NCBI GenBank assembly: GCA_009841255.1
Contig: VXMD01000004.1
Location: 1-64,000 of the forward strand
Reading direction: 5' to 3'
Length of the DNA: 64,000 nt
DNA from: Candidatus Poribacteria bacterium
GTDB lineage: Bacteria; Poribacteria; WGA-4E; WGA-3G
Position numbers and translations under genes: made by a program. The notes under the pieces were generated by a model. That model was not told where the DNA came from and did no database searches. It was given only the letters and a program-made list of their open reading frames with translations. This document shows, in pieces, positions 2,217 through 64,000 of this stretch; the stretch's first letter is position 1; every line of letters starts with the position of its first letter.

Positions 2217-2263
2217 CTTGATTGTATCATAGTTAACCCAAGTTAATACTAACAAATTTTGGG

Positions 2264-2290
2264 ATTTTTGCTTGGGTATTTCTGCGGATT
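2264..2290 (+). repeat. Shared core of a dispersed repeat (TTTTTGCTTGGG...)
   Basis: The stretch TTTTTGCTTGGGTATTTCTG recurs nearly unchanged on the opposite strand in both 118-bp repeats near 15.48 and 15.64 kb, and again at 28.38 kb inside a MITE. It lies in the gap between dnaK and the paired-palindrome leader. Confidence 0.6.
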
Positions 2291-2316
2291 TCAATATGGT
2301 TCTTTAGGCACTTCCC

Positions 2317-2346
2317 CACCCCGTAGGGGTGCTATGTCTATAGAAA
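2317..2346 (+). repeat. Palindrome-ATG repeat, copy A
   Basis: A 6-bp palindromic stem CACCCC-GTA-GGGGTG is followed by GCTATGTCTATAGAAA. The right arm AGGGGTG sits 2 bases before an ATG, so it can act as a ribosome-binding site. Copy B starts exactly 50 bases downstream. Related copies lie at 26680, 26740, 63093, 63143 and 63525. Confidence 0.85.
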
Positions 2347-2393
2347 ATGGCTCACACGAGCAATCGCACCCCGTGGGGGTGCTATGTCTATAA
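2334..2393 (+). CDS. Possible 19-codon leader ORF spanning repeat copies A and B
   Basis: Starting at the ATG inside copy A, an ORF of 19 codons runs through copy B and stops inside it. The peptide begins MSIEN and ends HPVGVLCL. An ORF with the same length, same first five residues and same last eight residues is found at 63110-63169. The match partly follows from the repeats themselves, but the 50-base spacing that keeps frame is preserved at both loci. Translation is not proven; this is offered as a candidate leader peptide. Confidence 0.35.
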   Translation: MSIENGSHEQSHPVGVLCL

Positions 2394-2396
2394 AAG
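2367..2396 (+). repeat. Palindrome-ATG repeat, copy B
   Basis: Second copy of the pair, with CACCCC-GTG-GGGGTG followed by GCTATGTCTATAAA. Its ATG at 2384 opens an 18-codon ORF that stops at 2440, overlapping the start codon (2430) of the next gene by 11 bases, an arrangement that would allow translational coupling. Confidence 0.85.
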
Positions 2397-2429
2397 ATCG
2401 AAACTTGCGAAGTATAAAGGGGAATAACA

Positions 2430-5711: not shown

Positions 5712-6335
5712 CTAATTCACAAAAAATCTGATAATACTCAACAGAAACGATTTTTTGAGATACAACGACAATATGGTATTCACTATTGATATGAAGGCGA
5801 TAAGGTTAGAAAGGAAATCTTTGATTTTTCTTGGAGTAAGACTGATAATTGGGATCATATCAAATATAGTAGACACACCTTTTTTTAGAAGATATATGGG
5901 GTTGATAATTTGAGATCGGATTTTTTCCATTATATCTTTAAAAGTGCCGATATTCAGAATCAGCATATTCTCAACTTTTTGGCATATTATGGTAAAATCA
6001 TGGCATTCAAGCATAACTATATCGCTAATTGTATTTACAATGTCTGTTGAAATTCTTAACACTGGATCGTATGTTGTCATACGAGTAATACTTTCTGATT
6101 TGATTTTCACAGCATTTTCAAGAAGATAAATGCTTAATTCAGGGTTAACACCTTTGCCTTCCTCAACATTGTTATGGAATTCTACTAATGCCTCCCTATA
6201 TTTACTCAACATCTCTATTTTCGCTCTGTACGTGTATAATTCATATAAACAATAACAGAAACCTAATGTAGCAAAACCGAACAATACCCATACGTGCAAT
6301 GGCAATACATTCAAAAATGGCATAAACATTCTCAC
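5712..6335 (-). CDS. Membrane-anchored protein of unknown function
   Basis: I do not recognise a family. The 207-residue protein has one clear membrane segment near residues 12-34 (LHVWVLFGFATLGFCYCLYE), then a largely helical, charged middle. Two moderately hydrophobic stretches follow near 155-205 and could be amphipathic or membrane-associated. Base composition is visibly more AT-rich than the flanking mdh or IS genes, as in the three genes that follow, which suggests acquisition by transfer. It is on the same strand as the cassette at 6501-8284 but separated by 165 bases, so it may or may not belong to that unit. Confidence 0.6.
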   Translation of the reverse strand: MRMFMPFLNVLPLHVWVLFGFATLGFCYCLYELYTYRAKIEMLSKYREALVEFHNNVEEGKGVNPELSIYLLENAVKIKSESITRMTTYDPVLRISTDIVNTISDIVMLECHDFTIICQKVENMLILNIGTFKDIMEKIRSQIINPIYLLKKGVSTIFDMIPIISLTPRKIKDFLSNLIAFISIVNTILSLYLKKSFLLSIIRFFVN

Positions 6336-6500
6336 AATAAAATTGTTTCGCTATTAGTAGTTTCGGATATAAGGACTTGACAAAATTCTGAAAAAAAATC
6401 GCAATTAATAGTTTCAGAAATTGTAAAGAAAAAGGAATCTGGCGTGGGGCGTTGGAATTGTCACGATTGCAAGGCAAGTTTCAAGGTTACTTGTGGGACT

Positions 6501-6977
6501 TCAGTTCTTTTTATGTGCAATATCAGTAGGAGGAACTAAAGGCCCCATTGCCCAGCCTCTCATGTTTGCAATATCAGCAAGATCTTCACGAAATCTCGCG
6601 CGCTTATTTTTAGTATTTGGGTGAGGTTTTAGTAAAATCAAAGAGTGTGCGATATTTCCATATTCTGGCTTATATTTTACATATACATCATGACCGTCTA
6701 CATTTACTTTATTACGTATATCTCCAGCGATAAGCAATATAATTCCATCTGTGTCACATGTCCGGGTCTCTGTAGGATCAAAATTCCGATTGCAAGCTCT
6801 ATCAGTAGACGGTTGGCGGGCTTTATCCAAAAAAGCATAAGGAGTTACTTTTAGCACGCCTGACATATCATAGTAATATTTACGCTCATTAGGATGTGCG
6901 TTTTCATTATGTATTGGAACTCTACGATAAAGTTTCTCATTATCTTCAATTTCACCATGTTTAATATTATTTGTCAT
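6501..6977 (-). CDS. Cassette protein 3, unknown function (YRRV...SxDRA type)
   Basis: A 158-residue hydrophilic protein with no membrane segment. Visible landmarks are LYRRVPIHNENAHP near 16-29, VTPYAFLDK near 44-52, PSTDRAC near 55-61, then an alpha/beta stretch (ILLIAGDIRN) and NIAHSLILLKP near 117-127. In general outline this matches small proteins found in many bacteria beside W-x-G-x-G proteins such as its upstream neighbour; that comparison is from memory. The start codon overlaps the end of the preceding gene by 11 bases, so the two are probably translationally coupled. Function unknown. Confidence 0.65.
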   Translation of the reverse strand: MTNNIKHGEIEDNEKLYRRVPIHNENAHPNERKYYYDMSGVLKVTPYAFLDKARQPSTDRACNRNFDPTETRTCDTDGIILLIAGDIRNKVNVDGHDVYVKYKPEYGNIAHSLILLKPHPNTKNKRARFREDLADIANMRGWAMGPLVPPTDIAHKKN

Positions 6978-15460: not shown

Positions 15461-15578
15461 AACCCAAAGGGGTAGCCTGCAACAATACGCAGAAATGCCC
15501 AAGCAAAAACACGCAGGCGGATATACGGGGATAAGGTTATTTGTCCAATTACCCTAACCGAACCGCAAGGAATCATTA
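15461..15578. repeat. 118-bp direct repeat, copy 1
   Basis: Begins aacccaaaggggtagcctgc and ends ccgcaaggaatcatta. The second copy at 15618-15736 is identical except for about two changes at the left edge. Both contain GGCGGATATACG and the CCGAACCGCAAGGAATCATTA end that recurs near 50.28 and 50.40 kb and before the DUF1015 gene. Confidence 0.92.
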
Positions 15579-15617
15579 GTAGTCAGGAGTTAGCAATTGG
15601 TTAAGAGATTTTCGTTA

Positions 15618-15736
15618 AACCCAAAGCGGATAGCCTGCAACAATACGCAGAAATGCCCAAGCAAAAACACGCAGGCGGATATACGGGGATAAGGTTATTT
15701 GTCCAATTACCCTAACCGAACCGCAAGGAATCATTA
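15618..15736. repeat. 118-bp direct repeat, copy 2
   Basis: Near-perfect copy of 15461-15578, separated by 39 bases. Its right edge touches the radical SAM gene: the TAA stop of that gene (minus strand, 15736-15734) lies inside the final TTA of the repeat. The whole 15355-15733 gap is made of these repeats plus short flanks; no gene was seen. Confidence 0.92.
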
Positions 15737-16954
15737 AAATCCCATGAGTCCGCAGCATCGGCGGCAGACAGGCATCGGTCCATCATTACTCACAGACTTC
15801 CGAAATTTCATCGCCTTCTGGTTATTCCACATATCCACAACCTTATCCGTCTGGATATTACCGATGGTGTAGTCGTGGTAATCGCGACAGAGACTCACAT
15901 CCCCGTTGCTATCGATCTCCATCGTCATGTAGATGCTAACACACTGGTTGTATCCAAAAGTTTGATTGTGATCTGTATAATAACGTTGGATCTCACCGCG
16001 TGTGTTGAGTCGTGGCATCATAATAGGCGGGCAACGTTGCTGTTCGTCGGCAAGGCTTTCCATCTCTTCAAAGCGATCCAAGATGACCCCGTGATCGAAG
16101 TCTTTCCATGTGCCTATCCAACCGTAATGGGTTTGCGGTTTAAACCCGAAGCGTTTCTCGAAATCTTCTGTGTGTTCCTGCGCCGATTCAGAATCGATCC
16201 ACCACGTCAAATAGAAGATTTGCGCGTCCGCGTATTGACTGGTGAATTTATAGAGATCTACGACAACGTCGATGTTATACATCGTAACGCAGCTGAGTGG
16301 AATAATATAAGGAAACTTTATATTCCGTTTCTCTTTTGCTTCATTAAGCGTTTCTAATGCCGCCTTGACATCTTTGAAGTTGTCGTAGTTTGGTGTTAGA
16401 CCCGGACGTTGCGTATTGTGAATTTCCTCGTTCGGTCCATCAACACTCAAATAGATAATTTTACAGGTTTCCAGAATATCGTCGGCGCGTCTGGCGATGT
16501 TCGTCGCGTTGCTCACGAGGGATATCGGCATGCCTCGTTCTTTGATGTAGTGCATCAATTCGATGATGCCCGGATAAAGCATGGGTTCACCGCCCCAGAT
16601 GTACCACACGGGAGACCAGCCTGCGTCCACAATCTGATCCACAAGGTTTTTATACACTTCAACGGGAACCTCGCGCTGCTTAAGTTCTTTCATGGACTTG
16701 CCGAGCAGGTATCCGTTATCGCCCCATTGTCCACAGGAATGGCAACGAAGGTTGCACATATCGGTAATACGGAGGCTCACCAGTTGGATGGCGTCGCCTC
16801 TGCCGTGTTTGGCACCGAGTGGGTGCCGCCAGTTGAAACTTTCCTTGGCAAGTTGATAGCGAACGAACTTGCGGGAGGTATCCCAATCTTCCGACATAGC
16901 ACTGGCGAGTTCATTGACAAAAAATCGTGGTGAGATTCGACTACGTAGTGCCAT
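15734..16954 (-). CDS. Radical SAM protein with SPASM-like C-terminus
   Basis: 406 residues. The [4Fe-4S] radical SAM motif is CxxxCxxC at C67, C71 and C74 (ITDMCNLRCHSCGQWG). GGEPMLYPGIIELM near 120-133 is the GGE motif for SAM binding. The C-terminal 80 residues carry further Cys (SLCRDYHDYTIG, then VCRRCCGLMGF at the very end), a SPASM or twitch-type auxiliary cluster site. Members modify peptides, sugars or cofactors; the substrate is unknown and no precursor-peptide gene is seen beside it. The N-terminal 50 residues precede the core and lack a signal. The gene end abuts the 118-bp repeat. Confidence 0.9.
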   Translation of the reverse strand: MALRSRISPRFFVNELASAMSEDWDTSRKFVRYQLAKESFNWRHPLGAKHGRGDAIQLVSLRITDMCNLRCHSCGQWGDNGYLLGKSMKELKQREVPVEVYKNLVDQIVDAGWSPVWYIWGGEPMLYPGIIELMHYIKERGMPISLVSNATNIARRADDILETCKIIYLSVDGPNEEIHNTQRPGLTPNYDNFKDVKAALETLNEAKEKRNIKFPYIIPLSCVTMYNIDVVVDLYKFTSQYADAQIFYLTWWIDSESAQEHTEDFEKRFGFKPQTHYGWIGTWKDFDHGVILDRFEEMESLADEQQRCPPIMMPRLNTRGEIQRYYTDHNQTFGYNQCVSIYMTMEIDSNGDVSLCRDYHDYTIGNIQTDKVVDMWNNQKAMKFRKSVSNDGPMPVCRRCCGLMGF

Positions 16955-39849: not shown

Positions 39850-39978
39850 TCGTTTCTTCCAAGAAATTGTGTTTTTAACATTATATCACAAACACAAAAA
39901 ATAGCAACGCCATTTTACAAATGGTTAGGGGCATTTAGTCCTTCCCTTGTAGATGCTACGATTCCCGACTCCTCCTAT

Positions 39979-40127
39979 CTTCTGTAGGAGCGAGTTTACT
40001 CGCGATTCTTCCCTATCTTCTGTAGGAGCGAGTTTACTCGCGATTCTCTCCTATCTTCTGTAGGAGCGAGTTTTACTCGCGATTCTTCCCTATCCTATCT
40101 TCTGTAGGAGCGAGTTTTACTCGCGAT
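39979..40127. repeat. Four-unit tandem hairpin repeat (TGTAGGAGCGAGT...)
   Basis: Four units of about 38-44 bp, each cttctgtaggagcgag followed by TTTACTCGCGATT and a short T/C-rich linker. Inside each unit CGAGT pairs with ACTCG. The unit core TTCTGTAGGAG also starts a variant at 61376 and 61416 (TGTAGGAGGGAACTCCGATT) and one near 26616. This fills most of the 39850-40157 gap; no gene was seen there. Confidence 0.9.
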
Positions 40128-46444: not shown

Positions 46445-48467
46445 GATGGAAATAAGGCTTCATATCCCACAAGAGAATGGTACCATCAAAACTACCACTC
46501 GCTAAAAGTTTACCGTCCGGAGAAAAAGCAAGATCTTGAACATCAGTGGGATGCCCCCAAAATGCGGTGATATTCTCGCCAGTAGTAACATCATATAAAC
46601 AGATGGAAACTTTCTCGATCCCGTACCGCCACCAAGAACCGGCGGCGATATACTGTCCACATGGTGAGAATGCCAAAGTAAACTTTTTCCTATATTCTCG
46701 TGGGAGAAATATCACCATCACAGTTTCATAAGTCCTTGCGTCCCAAAACCAAATTTCGCCCTCCATACCTCCCGCAAGAAGCGATCCATCTGGGGAAAAT
46801 ACGACTATTTTCGGGACGGATCGTGGTTTGATGTCCTTTTTTAACCTGTTAAGGAACTTTTGAACGCGACGTGCATCACCTTTATATTTCGTCGTATCCT
46901 GCGGAAACGCCAAAGATAATTCTGTTATTGGTTTTCCACTGTCAACATCCCAGATATGAGCATTTCTTTCACGGTGTGCACTGACAAGGGTCCTGCCGTC
47001 AGGTGAAAACGCGATTGAAAGGATACAACCGGTTTCCTCCGTAAACATCCGGAGTTCATAGTCGTGCTTCACATCCCATACTCCCAATACTCCCTTAGAA
47101 TCCGAACTCACTAACAGATTGCCTTTTGGAGAGAACGCAACAGCATGGAGTTGTGTTTCATGTCCAATCAGTTCAGTAGGAGGAGCATCTGGCACGCCAA
47201 TATCCCACACTCTTACGATAGTATCATGGGAACTGACAGCCAGTTTGTTGCCGCAAGGTGAAAAATCAAGGGAAGACATTATACAAGTATGATCTTCTGC
47301 AAGGGTTACCTGTGGCACGAGCTTCTCAATATCCAATAATGTGACACCGTTATCCCAATATGCTGCCGCTAAAATGTTTCCATTTGGTGAAAACTTGACA
47401 GAACCACACGCATTAGTATGCCCACGAATAACGCGAGGTCGGACTCCAGGTTCGGCTATTTTCCATATTTGGATGTTATCTGTCTTAACAAGGACTAATC
47501 GCGAACCTTTGGGTGAAAAATCGATACGATACGGACGCTGCTCATTTTTCAAATGCCTGAGCACACTACCAGACTTGGCATCCCATACAGTGGTAGTGGT
47601 CCCACTCCGGCCAGCAGCATATAGCATACCATTCATTGAATAAATAAGTTTTGGATGAGAATTTGTGTATGTTGACAACACTGAAAAGCATGAGTTTTTT
47701 TTTCGAATGCATTTGTTAATGTCCCATTCATGCAAAATGCCCTTCTTATCTCCGGAGGCGATCCAATTGCCGCAGAGGGAAAAAACGATCTCAGCGACAG
47801 GAGCCGTATGTCCAGTGAGACAGACGATACGTTTTTCTCTCTCAATGTTCCAGACTGAAACGGTGTTTTCTGGTGTTGCATTGGCAAGGAAACTGCCATC
47901 AGGAGAAAAAACAAGTGGGACAAGATAACGGGTTCCCTTTTCGGGGGCATTTTCAACGGTCAGTTCCGCAACTAGCTTACCGCTTTGTACACGCCAAATG
48001 TAAATGGCACCGTAATCGACCCTGGAAGCAGCTAAGTATTGTCCATCTGGAGAAAAAGCGAGTTGGGAGGCCTCATGGTGTTGCCCCCCAACTTGGATCA
48101 TTGTAGAGGCATACTGTCGGTTGTTCACATTCCATATCTTAATATCCCCATCCCAATTGCCGGTGGCAAGTAAGGTGCCATCCGAGGAAAAGGCGACTGC
48201 AGAAACCAAACCACGTTCGGTGTCCAATAATGAAAGCGGGTTCATAGTAGTGATATCGTATAACCAGAGCCCTACCATACTTCCGATTGCGAGTAGCTTT
48301 TCATCTGCGGAAAATGCTATGCAAAGAGCAGTGCTTCGCCCTATGCGTGTTAGCACCTTATTCGGGAGTGCCCATGTGTTGACATCCGGACGTGCATATG
48401 AACTTTGGATACTTGTTGGTCTATCTCGATTTTCCACCCAATATGCCCTTTGGTAATGATAAGACAA
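46431..48467 (-). CDS. WD40 repeat protein
   Basis: 678 residues made of about a dozen WD40 repeats, each with the AFSPDG-type turn (LAFSPDGQYLAAS, VVFSPDGSLLAGG, LAFSPDGKLLASGSFDG) and terminal IWD/VWD. The repeats probably form two beta-propellers, one per 6-7 blades. It has no clear signal peptide; residues 1-45 are a non-repeat lead-in rich in Asn, Arg and Pro. A binding scaffold is the usual role. It is sandwiched between a Cys-rich secreted protein (11 bases upstream) and the MacB-type permease (overlapping), which suggests it works with that transporter. Confidence 0.9.
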   Translation of the reverse strand: MSYHYQRAYWVENRDRPTSIQSSYARPDVNTWALPNKVLTRIGRSTALCIAFSADEKLLAIGSMVGLWLYDITTMNPLSLLDTERGLVSAVAFSSDGTLLATGNWDGDIKIWNVNNRQYASTMIQVGGQHHEASQLAFSPDGQYLAASRVDYGAIYIWRVQSGKLVAELTVENAPEKGTRYLVPLVFSPDGSFLANATPENTVSVWNIEREKRIVCLTGHTAPVAEIVFSLCGNWIASGDKKGILHEWDINKCIRKKNSCFSVLSTYTNSHPKLIYSMNGMLYAAGRSGTTTTVWDAKSGSVLRHLKNEQRPYRIDFSPKGSRLVLVKTDNIQIWKIAEPGVRPRVIRGHTNACGSVKFSPNGNILAAAYWDNGVTLLDIEKLVPQVTLAEDHTCIMSSLDFSPCGNKLAVSSHDTIVRVWDIGVPDAPPTELIGHETQLHAVAFSPKGNLLVSSDSKGVLGVWDVKHDYELRMFTEETGCILSIAFSPDGRTLVSAHRERNAHIWDVDSGKPITELSLAFPQDTTKYKGDARRVQKFLNRLKKDIKPRSVPKIVVFSPDGSLLAGGMEGEIWFWDARTYETVMVIFLPREYRKKFTLAFSPCGQYIAAGSWWRYGIEKVSICLYDVTTGENITAFWGHPTDVQDLAFSPDGKLLASGSFDGTILLWDMKPYFHHETS

Positions 48468-50277: not shown

Positions 50278-50310
50278 CCATCCTGACCGAACCGCAAGGA
50301 ATCATTAAAA
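50278..50310. repeat. CCGCAAGGAATCATTAAA repeat, solo copy
   Basis: CTGACCGAACCGCAAGGAAT followed by CATTAAAAGG. It encodes LTEPQGIIK in one frame, like the copies at 50398 (in the next gene) and before the DUF1015 start. Short related pieces (GGCGGATATACG) follow at 50355-50366. Confidence 0.7.
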
Positions 50311-50376: not shown

Positions 50377-52029
50377 ATGAAAGTTCTAATTTCCCTGACC
50401 GACCCGCAAGGAAACATTAAAAGAATCATTTTCATTAGTCTGATTGTTCTTATTGGGGTTATCATTGTGCTATCCATTATCTATCACCGAACCGCGATGT
50501 GGGAGCCGGAACAGCATCTTATCACGCTACTCCCCAAATCTCCAATTTGCTATTTGACGCTCAAGGACTTGAAAGGCGTGGTAGAAACTTTCAACCGCAG
50601 TGCTTTCGGAAAACAGACGGCTAACATGCCGGTTCTCACCGAGATTCAAAAGCAGCGATGGTGGAAACAACTCGTCTATCAGAAGCAGCTTTGGGAATAC
50701 GAAATGGGCGGAAAACTCGACCTGAAGACGGTCACCGGCTATTTTGGGGAGGAAGCTATCCTCGCCCTGTATCGACGTGAAGGAGAACTCTCGTTTCTAC
50801 TCATCAGTGCGGTCGGAGCACCGGAGAAACTGAGCATTGAAGCACTTACAGCAACGGATGCAATCAACCCACAATACGAACGGATCCAAACCGATTACAA
50901 CGGATTCACGATTAACACCATCATAGGGTATCCACGCAATTTTAGTTATACCTTCATCGGAAGAATTGGCATCTTAACCCTCGATCCCTTGTTATTAGCT
51001 GAGACGCTTGATCTCTATAGCGGACTTTCTGGCACAAAAACTGACCCGAAAGAGCAAGGATTCCTCGCTGAGCATCCCATGGCGATGGATATACAGACCG
51101 ATTATCATCAGGACAAAAGCACCGGATATGTAGATATGCAGCAGTTTACCCCTTTGTTCGATAGTATGCGTTCCGATGTCCTTGTTAAACAAATTTTAGG
51201 GGTATTTGGCGATTCAGGAGCTTGGGCGTTTAGCAACCGATATGAAGACGGGGTGATTGTATCACGACATCGATTCCGAAGGGGTATTGACACCAGCCGT
51301 TCCGAGCTTCCAACTGTAGATGCCTCCAAATCCTTCCTCACTTTCCCAGAACGCACTGCCTTTGTCGCTACGTTCCCCATTCTGAAACAGATGCAAGGAC
51401 TCTTCGGGGATATGGATCTCTCCCAAGTTTTGGGCACAGACTTAACTGTTCTGTTAGTTGCTCCCGATCCGGGTGAAGTATCGGTCCTTCCTTCGTTGGT
51501 TTTGCTGGCGCATGCGAAGGCTCCCGATGTCCTAAACGCGGTTTTAGGAATCGTGGAAGAAGGAAAGCCTACAATTGCCGGCAAGCCTCTCGAATTCTTG
51601 GAACCGCAGGATTACAAAGGGATCACACTGCAACCGCTGCAGCTCCGTCTCAATTTTCTGTTAGCGATTACAGGCGGATATGCGATCGTTAACGACTATT
51701 TCGTTTTGGGGACAACACTGGCGGGTTTGAGGTCTGTGATTGATACGACCACAGGTAATGCCCCTGTCTTGCAAGATATAGCATTCTCCCCAGGTAAGGG
51801 AGGTGTTCAAGCGTTCGTTCAACCAGAGCTGTTTGTGCCGGAATTGAAACGTTTCCTTCCGATCCTAACAGTGCTCCTTTCGCTTTCTGGACAGAAATTG
51901 GACCCGAAATTGACGCAAAGTATCACAGAAAACCTTTTTCCGCTGGAGTCCCTCGGTCCGATTTCTGCTGAAGTGGATGTGGGTGAACACGGTATGGATG
52001 CGGAGATTCGGATCGTTTTAGAGGAATGA
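50377..52029 (+). CDS. Membrane-anchored protein of unknown function (DUF3352-like)
   Basis: 550 residues. A signal anchor (RIIFISLIVLIGVIIVLSII near 16-35) then a large extracytoplasmic region with repeated Leu/Pro/Asp strands. LLPKSPICYLTLKDLKGVVE near 48-67 and a later FLTFPERTAFVATFPILKQM resemble the tandem half-domains of DUF3352-type proteins of unknown function. The first 15 residues (MKVLISLTDPQGNIK) are encoded by the CCGCAAGGA...CATTAAA repeat, so the true start is uncertain; no other ATG precedes the anchor. The hairpin repeat at 52031 follows directly and may stabilise the 3' end. Confidence 0.65.
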   Translation: MKVLISLTDPQGNIKRIIFISLIVLIGVIIVLSIIYHRTAMWEPEQHLITLLPKSPICYLTLKDLKGVVETFNRSAFGKQTANMPVLTEIQKQRWWKQLVYQKQLWEYEMGGKLDLKTVTGYFGEEAILALYRREGELSFLLISAVGAPEKLSIEALTATDAINPQYERIQTDYNGFTINTIIGYPRNFSYTFIGRIGILTLDPLLLAETLDLYSGLSGTKTDPKEQGFLAEHPMAMDIQTDYHQDKSTGYVDMQQFTPLFDSMRSDVLVKQILGVFGDSGAWAFSNRYEDGVIVSRHRFRRGIDTSRSELPTVDASKSFLTFPERTAFVATFPILKQMQGLFGDMDLSQVLGTDLTVLLVAPDPGEVSVLPSLVLLAHAKAPDVLNAVLGIVEEGKPTIAGKPLEFLEPQDYKGITLQPLQLRLNFLLAITGGYAIVNDYFVLGTTLAGLRSVIDTTTGNAPVLQDIAFSPGKGGVQAFVQPELFVPELKRFLPILTVLLSLSGQKLDPKLTQSITENLFPLESLGPISAEVDVGEHGMDAEIRIVLEE

Positions 52030-61374: not shown

Positions 61375-61447
61375 CTCTTCTGTAAGAGGGAACTCCGATT
61401 CCCGACAATATTGGCTCTTCTGTAGGAGGGAACTCCGATTCCCGACT
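61375..61447. repeat. Tandem pair of TGTAGGAGGGAACTCC repeats
   Basis: Two units of TCTTCTGTAGGAGGGAACTC followed by CGATTCCCGAC (the first has AAGAGG). They belong to the same family as 39979-40127 with a different hairpin body (GGAACTCC region). A third degenerate unit starts near 61450. No gene in 61299-61600. Confidence 0.75.
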
Positions 61448-63065: not shown

Positions 63066-63092
63066 GCACGCTTAAGGTTTTCAAACATTTCT

Positions 63093-63122
63093 CACCCCGT
63101 AGGGGTGCTATGTCTATAGAAA
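63093..63122 (+). repeat. Palindrome-ATG repeat, copy C
   Basis: CACCCC-GTA-GGGGTG followed by GCTATGTCTATAGAAA, identical to copy A at 2317. Copy D starts exactly 50 bases later. Confidence 0.9.
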
Positions 63123-63169
63123 ATAATGTGTTTAAGCAACTGCACCCCGTAGGGGTGCTATGTCTATGA
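63110..63169 (+). CDS. Possible 19-codon leader ORF spanning copies C and D
   Basis: From the ATG in copy C, 19 codons then TGA inside copy D. The peptide begins MSIEN and ends HPVGVLCL, as in the leader at 2334-2393; the middle residues differ. Translation is unproven. Confidence 0.35.
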   Translation: MSIENNVFKQLHPVGVLCL

Positions 63170-63170
63170 A
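63143..63170 (+). repeat. Palindrome-ATG repeat, copy D
   Basis: CACCCC-GTA-GGGGTG followed by GCTATGTCTATGAA. Its ATG at 63160 opens a 16-codon ORF ending in TGA at 63208-63210, which overlaps the ATG of the next gene (ATGA). Confidence 0.9.
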
Positions 63171-63206
63171 TAGGTGGCAACTCACGTCATATAAAGGAGA
63201 AGCGGT

Positions 63207-63467
63207 ATGAATTGGGGAATAGGCTTAATTTTCATTACTGTTATTGGATGTGTCCTGCTCGTCTGGTATCTGTGTCAGCGTTCCGAAAATGAGACTTCTG
63301 AGAATGAAGAGGTACCGGCTGATGACGGCTATGAGGACCTGCTTTTAACGGGTCTCATGCTCGAAGAAGTCTATGATGATAATCAGGATGCATCTGACGA
63401 TCAGGATTCTGACGGCTATGATGACGGATTCGACGGGGGTTATGATGACAGTGGTGGATTGGAGTAA
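63207..63467 (+). CDS. Small acidic single-pass membrane protein
   Basis: 86 residues. One membrane segment (GIGLIFITVIGCVLLVWYLC near 4-23) then a very acidic, Gly/Tyr-rich tail with Asp and Glu repeats (DGYDDGFDGGYDDSG near 70-84). No family recognised. The start has AAAGGAGA, 6 bases before ATG. It lies between modB and modC and behind repeat copies C and D. The acidic tail may face the cytosol and could bind cations, but this is a guess. Confidence 0.65.
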   Translation: MNWGIGLIFITVIGCVLLVWYLCQRSENETSENEEVPADDGYEDLLLTGLMLEEVYDDNQDASDDQDSDGYDDGFDGGYDDSGGLE

Positions 63468-63524
63468 CCCAACTTGCTACTAATGAATTCTACGCGTTTG
63501 AAGAACCTTTTTCAGCACGTTCTT

Positions 63525-63554
63525 CACCCCAGAGGGGTGGTATGTCTATAGAAA
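63525..63554 (+). repeat. Palindrome-ATG repeat, copy E, supplying the modC start
   Basis: CACCCC-AGA-GGGGTG then GTATGTCTATAGAAA. The GAGGGG arm sits 6 bases before the ATG that opens modC. Confidence 0.9.
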
Positions 63555-64000
63555 GTCCGAAAATCAGACTCGATTTCCGCAAAAGCCTCGGGAGTTTCAC
63601 CTTAGAGGTCGATTGCACGCTGGAAGCAAAGGTTTCGGCGTTTTTAGGCGTGTCTGGCAGCGGTAAAAGTACACTTCTCAATTGCGTGAGCGGCACGCTA
63701 ATGCCTGATGAGGGTGAAATCGCTTTTGGAGACGAGATCCTTTACGCCTCCGCCTCTAAAATTAATCTACCCCCGGAAAAGCGGCAGTTCGGCTATGTTT
63801 TTCAAGAGGGCTACCTTTTTCCCCATCTCACGGTTGCCCAGAACATCCGATACGGACAACCGAATCCACGAAAATCATCACCCGCAATAGATGTTCTCGA
63901 AATTGCCGAACTTCTCCAACGGTATCCGAAAGAACTCTCTGGTGGTGAACGTCAACGGGTGGCGGTCGCACGGGCACTCGCTATGGAGCCTCGGATGCTT
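63542..64000 (+). CDS. modC: Molybdate ABC transporter ATP-binding protein, cut by window end
   Basis: The first 153 codons are present; the gene runs off the window. Walker A is VSGSGKST near residues 39-46 (FLGVSGSGKSTLLNCVSG), the Q-loop is in GYVFQEGYLFPHL, and the ABC signature LSGGERQRVAVARALA is near 134-149; the Walker B follows beyond the edge. The context (modA, modB) and the ModC-like GYVFQEGYLFPHLTV support the name. The start ATG and the first codons (MSIE) are part of the palindrome-ATG repeat, so translation may be controlled by that hairpin. The only gap from the mod operon is the 86-aa gene. Confidence 0.93.
   Translation, partial: MSIESPKIRLDFRKSLGSFTLEVDCTLEAKVSAFLGVSGSGKSTLLNCVSGTLMPDEGEIAFGDEILYASASKINLPPEKRQFGYVFQEGYLFPHLTVAQNIRYGQPNPRKSSPAIDVLEIAELLQRYPKELSGGERQRVAVARALAMEPRML

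Follow-up and report, generated by a model that had tools for sequence, protein, structure and literature searches.

We analysed a 64,000-nucleotide stretch of a Candidatus Poribacteria contig, hereafter the window, which ends in a modB–modC region carrying short hairpin repeats; the elements, hairpins and genes located below in the modB–modC region and at copies A and B lie on the plus strand. The repeat CACCCCGTAGGGGTGCTATGTCTAT occurs at 63093 and 63143 (copies C and D; hairpins HP1 at 63093..63107 and HP2 at 63143..63157), 50 bp apart. They belong to an element at 63074..63189 that adjoins the modB stop codon and is a MITE, i.e., a non-autonomous transposon, now lacking its left end; its right end, GGTGGCAACTCACGTCA, lies at 63173-63189. 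An 86-aa gene follows at 63207..63467. Copy E of the hairpin repeat starts at 63525, 382 bp downstream of D, and is part of a further element at 63465..63556. There, the left half of a MITE (left end TAACCCAACTTGCTAC at 63465-63480, HP1 at 63525-63539) is joined to the gene for a modC-like ABC transporter ATPase (63542..64000, running past the window end), with the ATG of copy E at the start of modC; HP2 and the right end are lost.

The 50-bp spacing recurs at 2317 and 2367 (copies A and B), as originally predicted. Compared with the consensus ends of the family, the ~179 bp at 2234..2412 form a nearly complete MITE, with the left end TAACCCAAGTTAATAC at 2234-2249 and a degenerate right end, GATCGAAACTTGCGAAG, at approximately 2396-2412. 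Its HP1 at 2317..2331 reads CACCCC GTA GGGGTG and is followed by CTATGTCTATAGAAA, and its HP2 at 2367..2381, 50 bp from HP1, reads CACCCC GTG GGGGTG. The 96-aa ORF behind this element (2430-2720) gave no Pfam match and one partial, interrupted match in 37 relatives; it is possibly a young or horizontally acquired gene.

The original prediction also described a 19-codon ORF at both loci. Read from the first ATG, this ORF is present as MSIENNVFKQLHPVGVLCL at 63110..63169 and as MSIENGSHEQSHPVGVLCL at the A/B locus. The described ATGA overlap was likewise found: the ATG at 63160 opens 16 codons, and their TGA (63208-63210) overlaps the ATG (63207) of the 86-aa ORF. The overlap is present at the C/D locus only, not at A/B. 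A shared TATAAAGGxGA before the gene was seen at both loci (TATAAAGGNGA at 2413 and 63190); a third match lies at 46876 on the minus strand, and these three matches in the window compare with 0.09 expected by chance.

Distribution of the hairpin repeat

Both predicted loci are real; however, a picture of two loci is too small, as the hairpin family is genome-wide and genus-wide. Allowing up to two mismatches, the genome of the window, with 5.73 Mb in 87 contigs, gave 67 matches of the hairpin repeat (38 of them forward, 29 reverse); the reversed sequence, used as the control, gave none. The repeat was present in 36 of 36 searched genomes of the genus (its own and 35 others) and in the two genomes of one sister family; it was missing from most other families and nearly absent beyond. 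Among the 80 matches listed from the named sequence collections, all were Candidatus Poribacteria. The recurring unit is a doublet, that is, two hairpins in the same orientation at a distance of 49 or 50 bp, with a TATGTCTAT-like stretch behind each. The HP1–HP2 spacing was 50 bp in 52 and 49 bp in 44 of the 105 distinct pairs.

Anatomy of the element and its target duplication

The family ends are TAACCCAAGTTGCTAC and GTGGCAACTTGCGTTA; the former lies ~60 bp left of HP1, and the latter is its imperfect inverted copy past HP2. The end-to-end distance was near-constant, and complete elements mostly measured 154–158 bp, with some of 166–198 bp. An exact 7-bp target duplication, usually TANNNTA, flanked 27 of 58 elements, compared with a mean of 1.56 and a maximum of 6 after shuffling; duplications of 3–6 bp were at chance level in these 58 elements. 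A perfect duplication was absent from approximately half of the elements, as is expected of old copies. We also considered a 3-bp duplication with TA as part of the ends. In three elements, the outer dinucleotide was not TA, yet it was identical on both sides (AAGAATA in L036, ATTTATA in L074 and AATTATA in L098). This covariation indicates that the duplication comprises 7 bp, not 3 bp plus fixed TA ends, and the 3-bp reading was ruled out. The element of ~156 bp is too small for a transposase, and each genome contains dozens of copies.

An IS982-family partner

No autonomous partner was present among the end pairs of the collected repeat loci. It was found only in one single-contig genome (G022), at a locus (L222) reached by searching for the MITE ends in single-contig genomes. 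This locus contains two intact 925-bp elements with the MITE ends, flanked by the target duplications TATACTA and TATTATA. Both encode the same 284-aa protein, which scored 173 bits on NCBIfam NF033520 (IS982 family; cutoff 130) and also matched Pfam DDE_Tnp_1_3. Further IS982 copies of 925–927 bp with 7-bp duplications were present in relatives. The IS982 duplications (TATTATA, TATACTA, TATCTTA and TATATAA) are of the same kind as those of the MITEs. In addition, the genome of the window retains a decayed 609-bp IS982 copy (G000:C86:3796-4404), which is flanked left and right by TATTATA and whose transposase is broken. The terminal inverted repeats that define an IS982-type MITE are common to the short elements and to an autonomous IS982 element of the clade.

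Judging from sequence comparison, we put at approximately 95% the probability that hairpin repeats A/B, C/D and E are copies of a ~156-bp non-autonomous transposon (MITE) of the IS982 type, found genus-wide in Candidatus Poribacteria. An IS982-family transposase would act in trans on the TAACCCAAGTTGC.../...GCAACTTGSGTTA ends, and insertion duplicates 7 bp of the target. The module had been described as portable and unlinked to the gene behind it, and this description agrees with a transposable element having terminal inverted repeats, target duplications and an IS982 partner. This IS982-type MITE family, with its shared interior of hairpins, is new; we found no account of Poribacteria MITEs in the literature.

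Insertions at the modB–modC locus

ModC homologues were present in 37 of 38 genomes. The loci of 29 relatives contained no hairpin element at the modB–modC region, and in most of them the 86-aa gene occupies the modB–modC interval. Element C/D probably inserted upstream of the 86-aa gene, on its modB side, and lost its left end. In the relatives, modC mostly starts with ATGGCAGATAGT(C/A)CCAAAATC, encoding MADSPKIRL or similar. In the genome of the window, TAACCCAACTTGCTAC...HP1-GTATGTCTATAGAA runs directly into AGTCCGAAAATC; the codons ATG TCT ATA GAA derive from element E, and the native MADSPKIRL has become MSIESPKIRL. There is no further in-frame ATG, GTG or TTG between the upstream stop and the Walker A GTG of modC, indicating that element E supplies the start codon. 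Its ATG is the only plausible start codon of modC, one clear case of start-codon capture, and copy E contributes to expression in this way. A TAA in element E also doubles as the stop of the 86-aa gene. Comparison with the 29 relatives suggests that E landed before modC and that a deletion then fused its ATG and first codons to ModC. In some close relatives (L194, L198 and L207), TAACCCAAGGTG(C/T)T, which resembles the left end, is still present at this position; an older insertion is therefore likely, which each lineage has since remodelled in its own way.

A second dispersed repeat, CCTGACCGAACCGCAAGGAATCATTAAAA, was observed in the window at 15553-15581, 15711-15739, 50282-50310 and 50394-50422. 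A similar repeat stands directly before the modC ATG in L191-L194, L197, L198, L202 and L207 (e.g., AAGGAATAATTAAAAAATGG), where it apparently acts as a ribosome-binding site.

The leader reading of the hairpin and mini-ORF

The original prediction argued for a portable regulatory module. As a cis-regulatory leader, the hairpins and the translated mini-ORF would act by attenuation or translational coupling and be kept by selection wherever they occur. The 19-codon ORFs at both loci, the ATGA overlap at one of them, the compensatory change in the hairpins and the sense-oriented placement of some elements immediately before genes would all be consistent with this. However, the frame is not conserved, since 49-bp spacings are roughly as frequent as 50-bp ones. 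When the spacing is 50 bp, a frame opened at the first ATG passes across HP2, in most cases ends at CTA TGT CTA TRA, and has exactly 19 codons in 17 of 23 such elements; with 49-bp spacing, the ORF has from 5 to more than 31 codons. The 19 codons common to both loci thus follow from the 50-bp spacing and the element sequence, and the ORF is a by-product with no sign of peptide selection. The orientation of elements between genes was near random (95 toward and 80 away from the downstream gene, approximate counts from a simple ORF caller), and the element is absent before the 29 orthologous modC genes. Complete elements with IS982 ends pointed toward the gene in 37 of 60 cases and away in 23, again approximate counts from the simple caller; complete elements could be inserted or retained slightly more often in the sense direction. 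As elements land in intergenic gaps both ways round, some of them will resemble leaders.

The conserved block is accounted for by the transposon ends and the target duplication. TATAAAG is the start of the target site, so that TATAAAGGxGA falls at the insertion junction, beside the gene-proximal ribosome-binding site. AGGAGA resembles a native ribosome-binding site of the gene, as AAGGAGAAA is found at this position in several relatives that lack the element. Element letters and native letters together make up the 16-codon ORF of the ATGA overlap, and the corresponding A/B ORF ends elsewhere. The window gave no Rfam match, so that a known RNA family was rejected, as was unusual stability of the predicted folds (z -1.1 to -1.7). 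A sigma-54-like reading of TGGCAACTTGC was dropped on inspection because the spacing was wrong. We therefore consider a selected leader very improbable. A single recent segmental copying event, which the original prediction named as its own refuting case, would explain why two places in the window are built alike. However, the copies are scattered over the genome and the genus, with target duplications of their own in flanks that are unrelated, and similarity between the loci ends at the element ends, without the identical flanks beyond the repeats that such copying would leave; its probability is close to nil.

The doublet in other MITE families

Covariation of the palindromes, which the original prediction had proposed to model, is evident. 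Using the anchor TATGTCTATAG alone, we found a perfect 6-bp stem upstream at 168 of 226 sites, compared with a mean of 46 and a maximum of 66 for re-dealt 3' arms. The stems include CACCCC, CACTCC, CACGCC, TGCTCC and CGCTCC, among others, each with its matching partner; that is, the hairpins are kept by compensatory change. They are conserved far better than passive filler, suggesting that the interior of the element probably does something.

The doublet was also present in elements with other ends. Those with ACTAAAGTTTGGACAATTT ends (13 with the core) showed 6–7-bp duplications in 5 of 15 cases, and their full-length counterparts encode an IS701-family transposase (195 bits, cutoff 170). Those with GGTGTGTAAANNTTTTGGC ends (11 with the core) showed 9-bp duplications, offset by one, in 4 of 11 cases, and the full-length elements encode an ISKra4-family transposase (235 bits, cutoff 205). 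The doublet was absent from all autonomous copies examined. In one relative (G002), the HP2 stem was CACGCC in 16 of 16 IS701-type, 7 of 7 ISKra4-type and 1 of 2 IS982-type elements, and in 0 of 71 elements in all other genomes; as copies within a family are not independent, these counts amount to two or three parallel shifts. Each shift is a paired double substitution, with two matching substitutions. Such a concerted change could result from recombination between MITE masters or from a trans-acting hairpin-binding factor.

One possible but doubtful reading is that the doublet is an independent module, either trans-recognised or self-spreading, which rides in Poribacteria MITEs of three or more transposase families (IS982, IS701 and ISKra4) and whose stem 'dialect' shifts per genome as compensatory substitutions affect several of these MITE families together. 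That the doublet is itself a mobile or trans-recognised unit, like REP/RAYT or IS200/IS605-type single-strand hairpins, with the MITE ends as its vehicle, seems slightly less probable and would add to the MITE explanation, not replace it. Its occurrence inside three kinds of ends, its absence from the autonomous copies, tandem arrays with a 49/50-bp unit, such as the eight copies of L103, and the G002-specific stem change across families argue for such a unit. However, we found neither a precise boundary of the doublet nor a target site or a transposase dedicated to it, recombination spreading it between MITE masters would look alike, and just one of the two IS982-type pairs in G002 shows the stem change.

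Several further repeat arrangements were observed. The L103 array (minus strand, 6209-6573) consists of 50-bp units, and a CRISPR reading of it was rejected because the spacers are identical. L127 (minus strand, 6340-6560) has units of 49–51 bp, and L012 (5914-7000) has longer periods. Four ISKra4-type MITEs (L173, L185, L018 and L084) measure 270–300 bp and carry hairpin units on both strands as an inverted pair. Short tandem repeats with internal palindromes at 39970-40127 in the window (38–44 bp, TGTAGGAGCGAGTTTACTCGCGATT) and 61375-61446 (40 bp, CTGTAAGAGGGAACTCCGATTCCCGAC) probably belong to other repeat families.

Implications and comparison with known systems

Reading the repeats as MITEs removes a spurious regulatory-leader claim and accounts for the recurring "MSIE" start motif before unrelated Poribacteria genes. 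It also reveals a transporter ATPase gene whose apparent start codon is provided by a transposon fragment, an arrangement that gene callers and orthology tools may misread. One and the same doublet, with concerted changes of its stem, occurs in MITEs belonging to three transposase families, and the question arises of what unrelated parasites gain from such an interior.

REP sequences and REPINs, with their RAYT (Y1) transposases, are numerous, dispersed, palindromic, compensating extragenic hairpins of genome-specific sequence. The Poribacteria hairpins are likewise dispersed, palindromic, compensating, extragenic and genome-specific; however, their doublets are direct repeats 49/50 bp apart and lie within DDE-transposase ends and target duplications. 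MITEAba12 of Acinetobacter is similarly described as a non-autonomous, IS-derived bacterial MITE (PMC6382973), of another family and organism. The MITE of the Cardinium endosymbiont cOegib, of ~240 bp, is derived from its own IS982-family element (PMC9769881). It resembles the present family in its many short repeats without a transposase, whose inverted repeats are near those of an IS982-family element of the same genome (PMC9769881). In contrast, the Poribacteria element measures ~156 bp, and its doublet, absent from the IS982 copies examined, is common to MITEs of other IS families.
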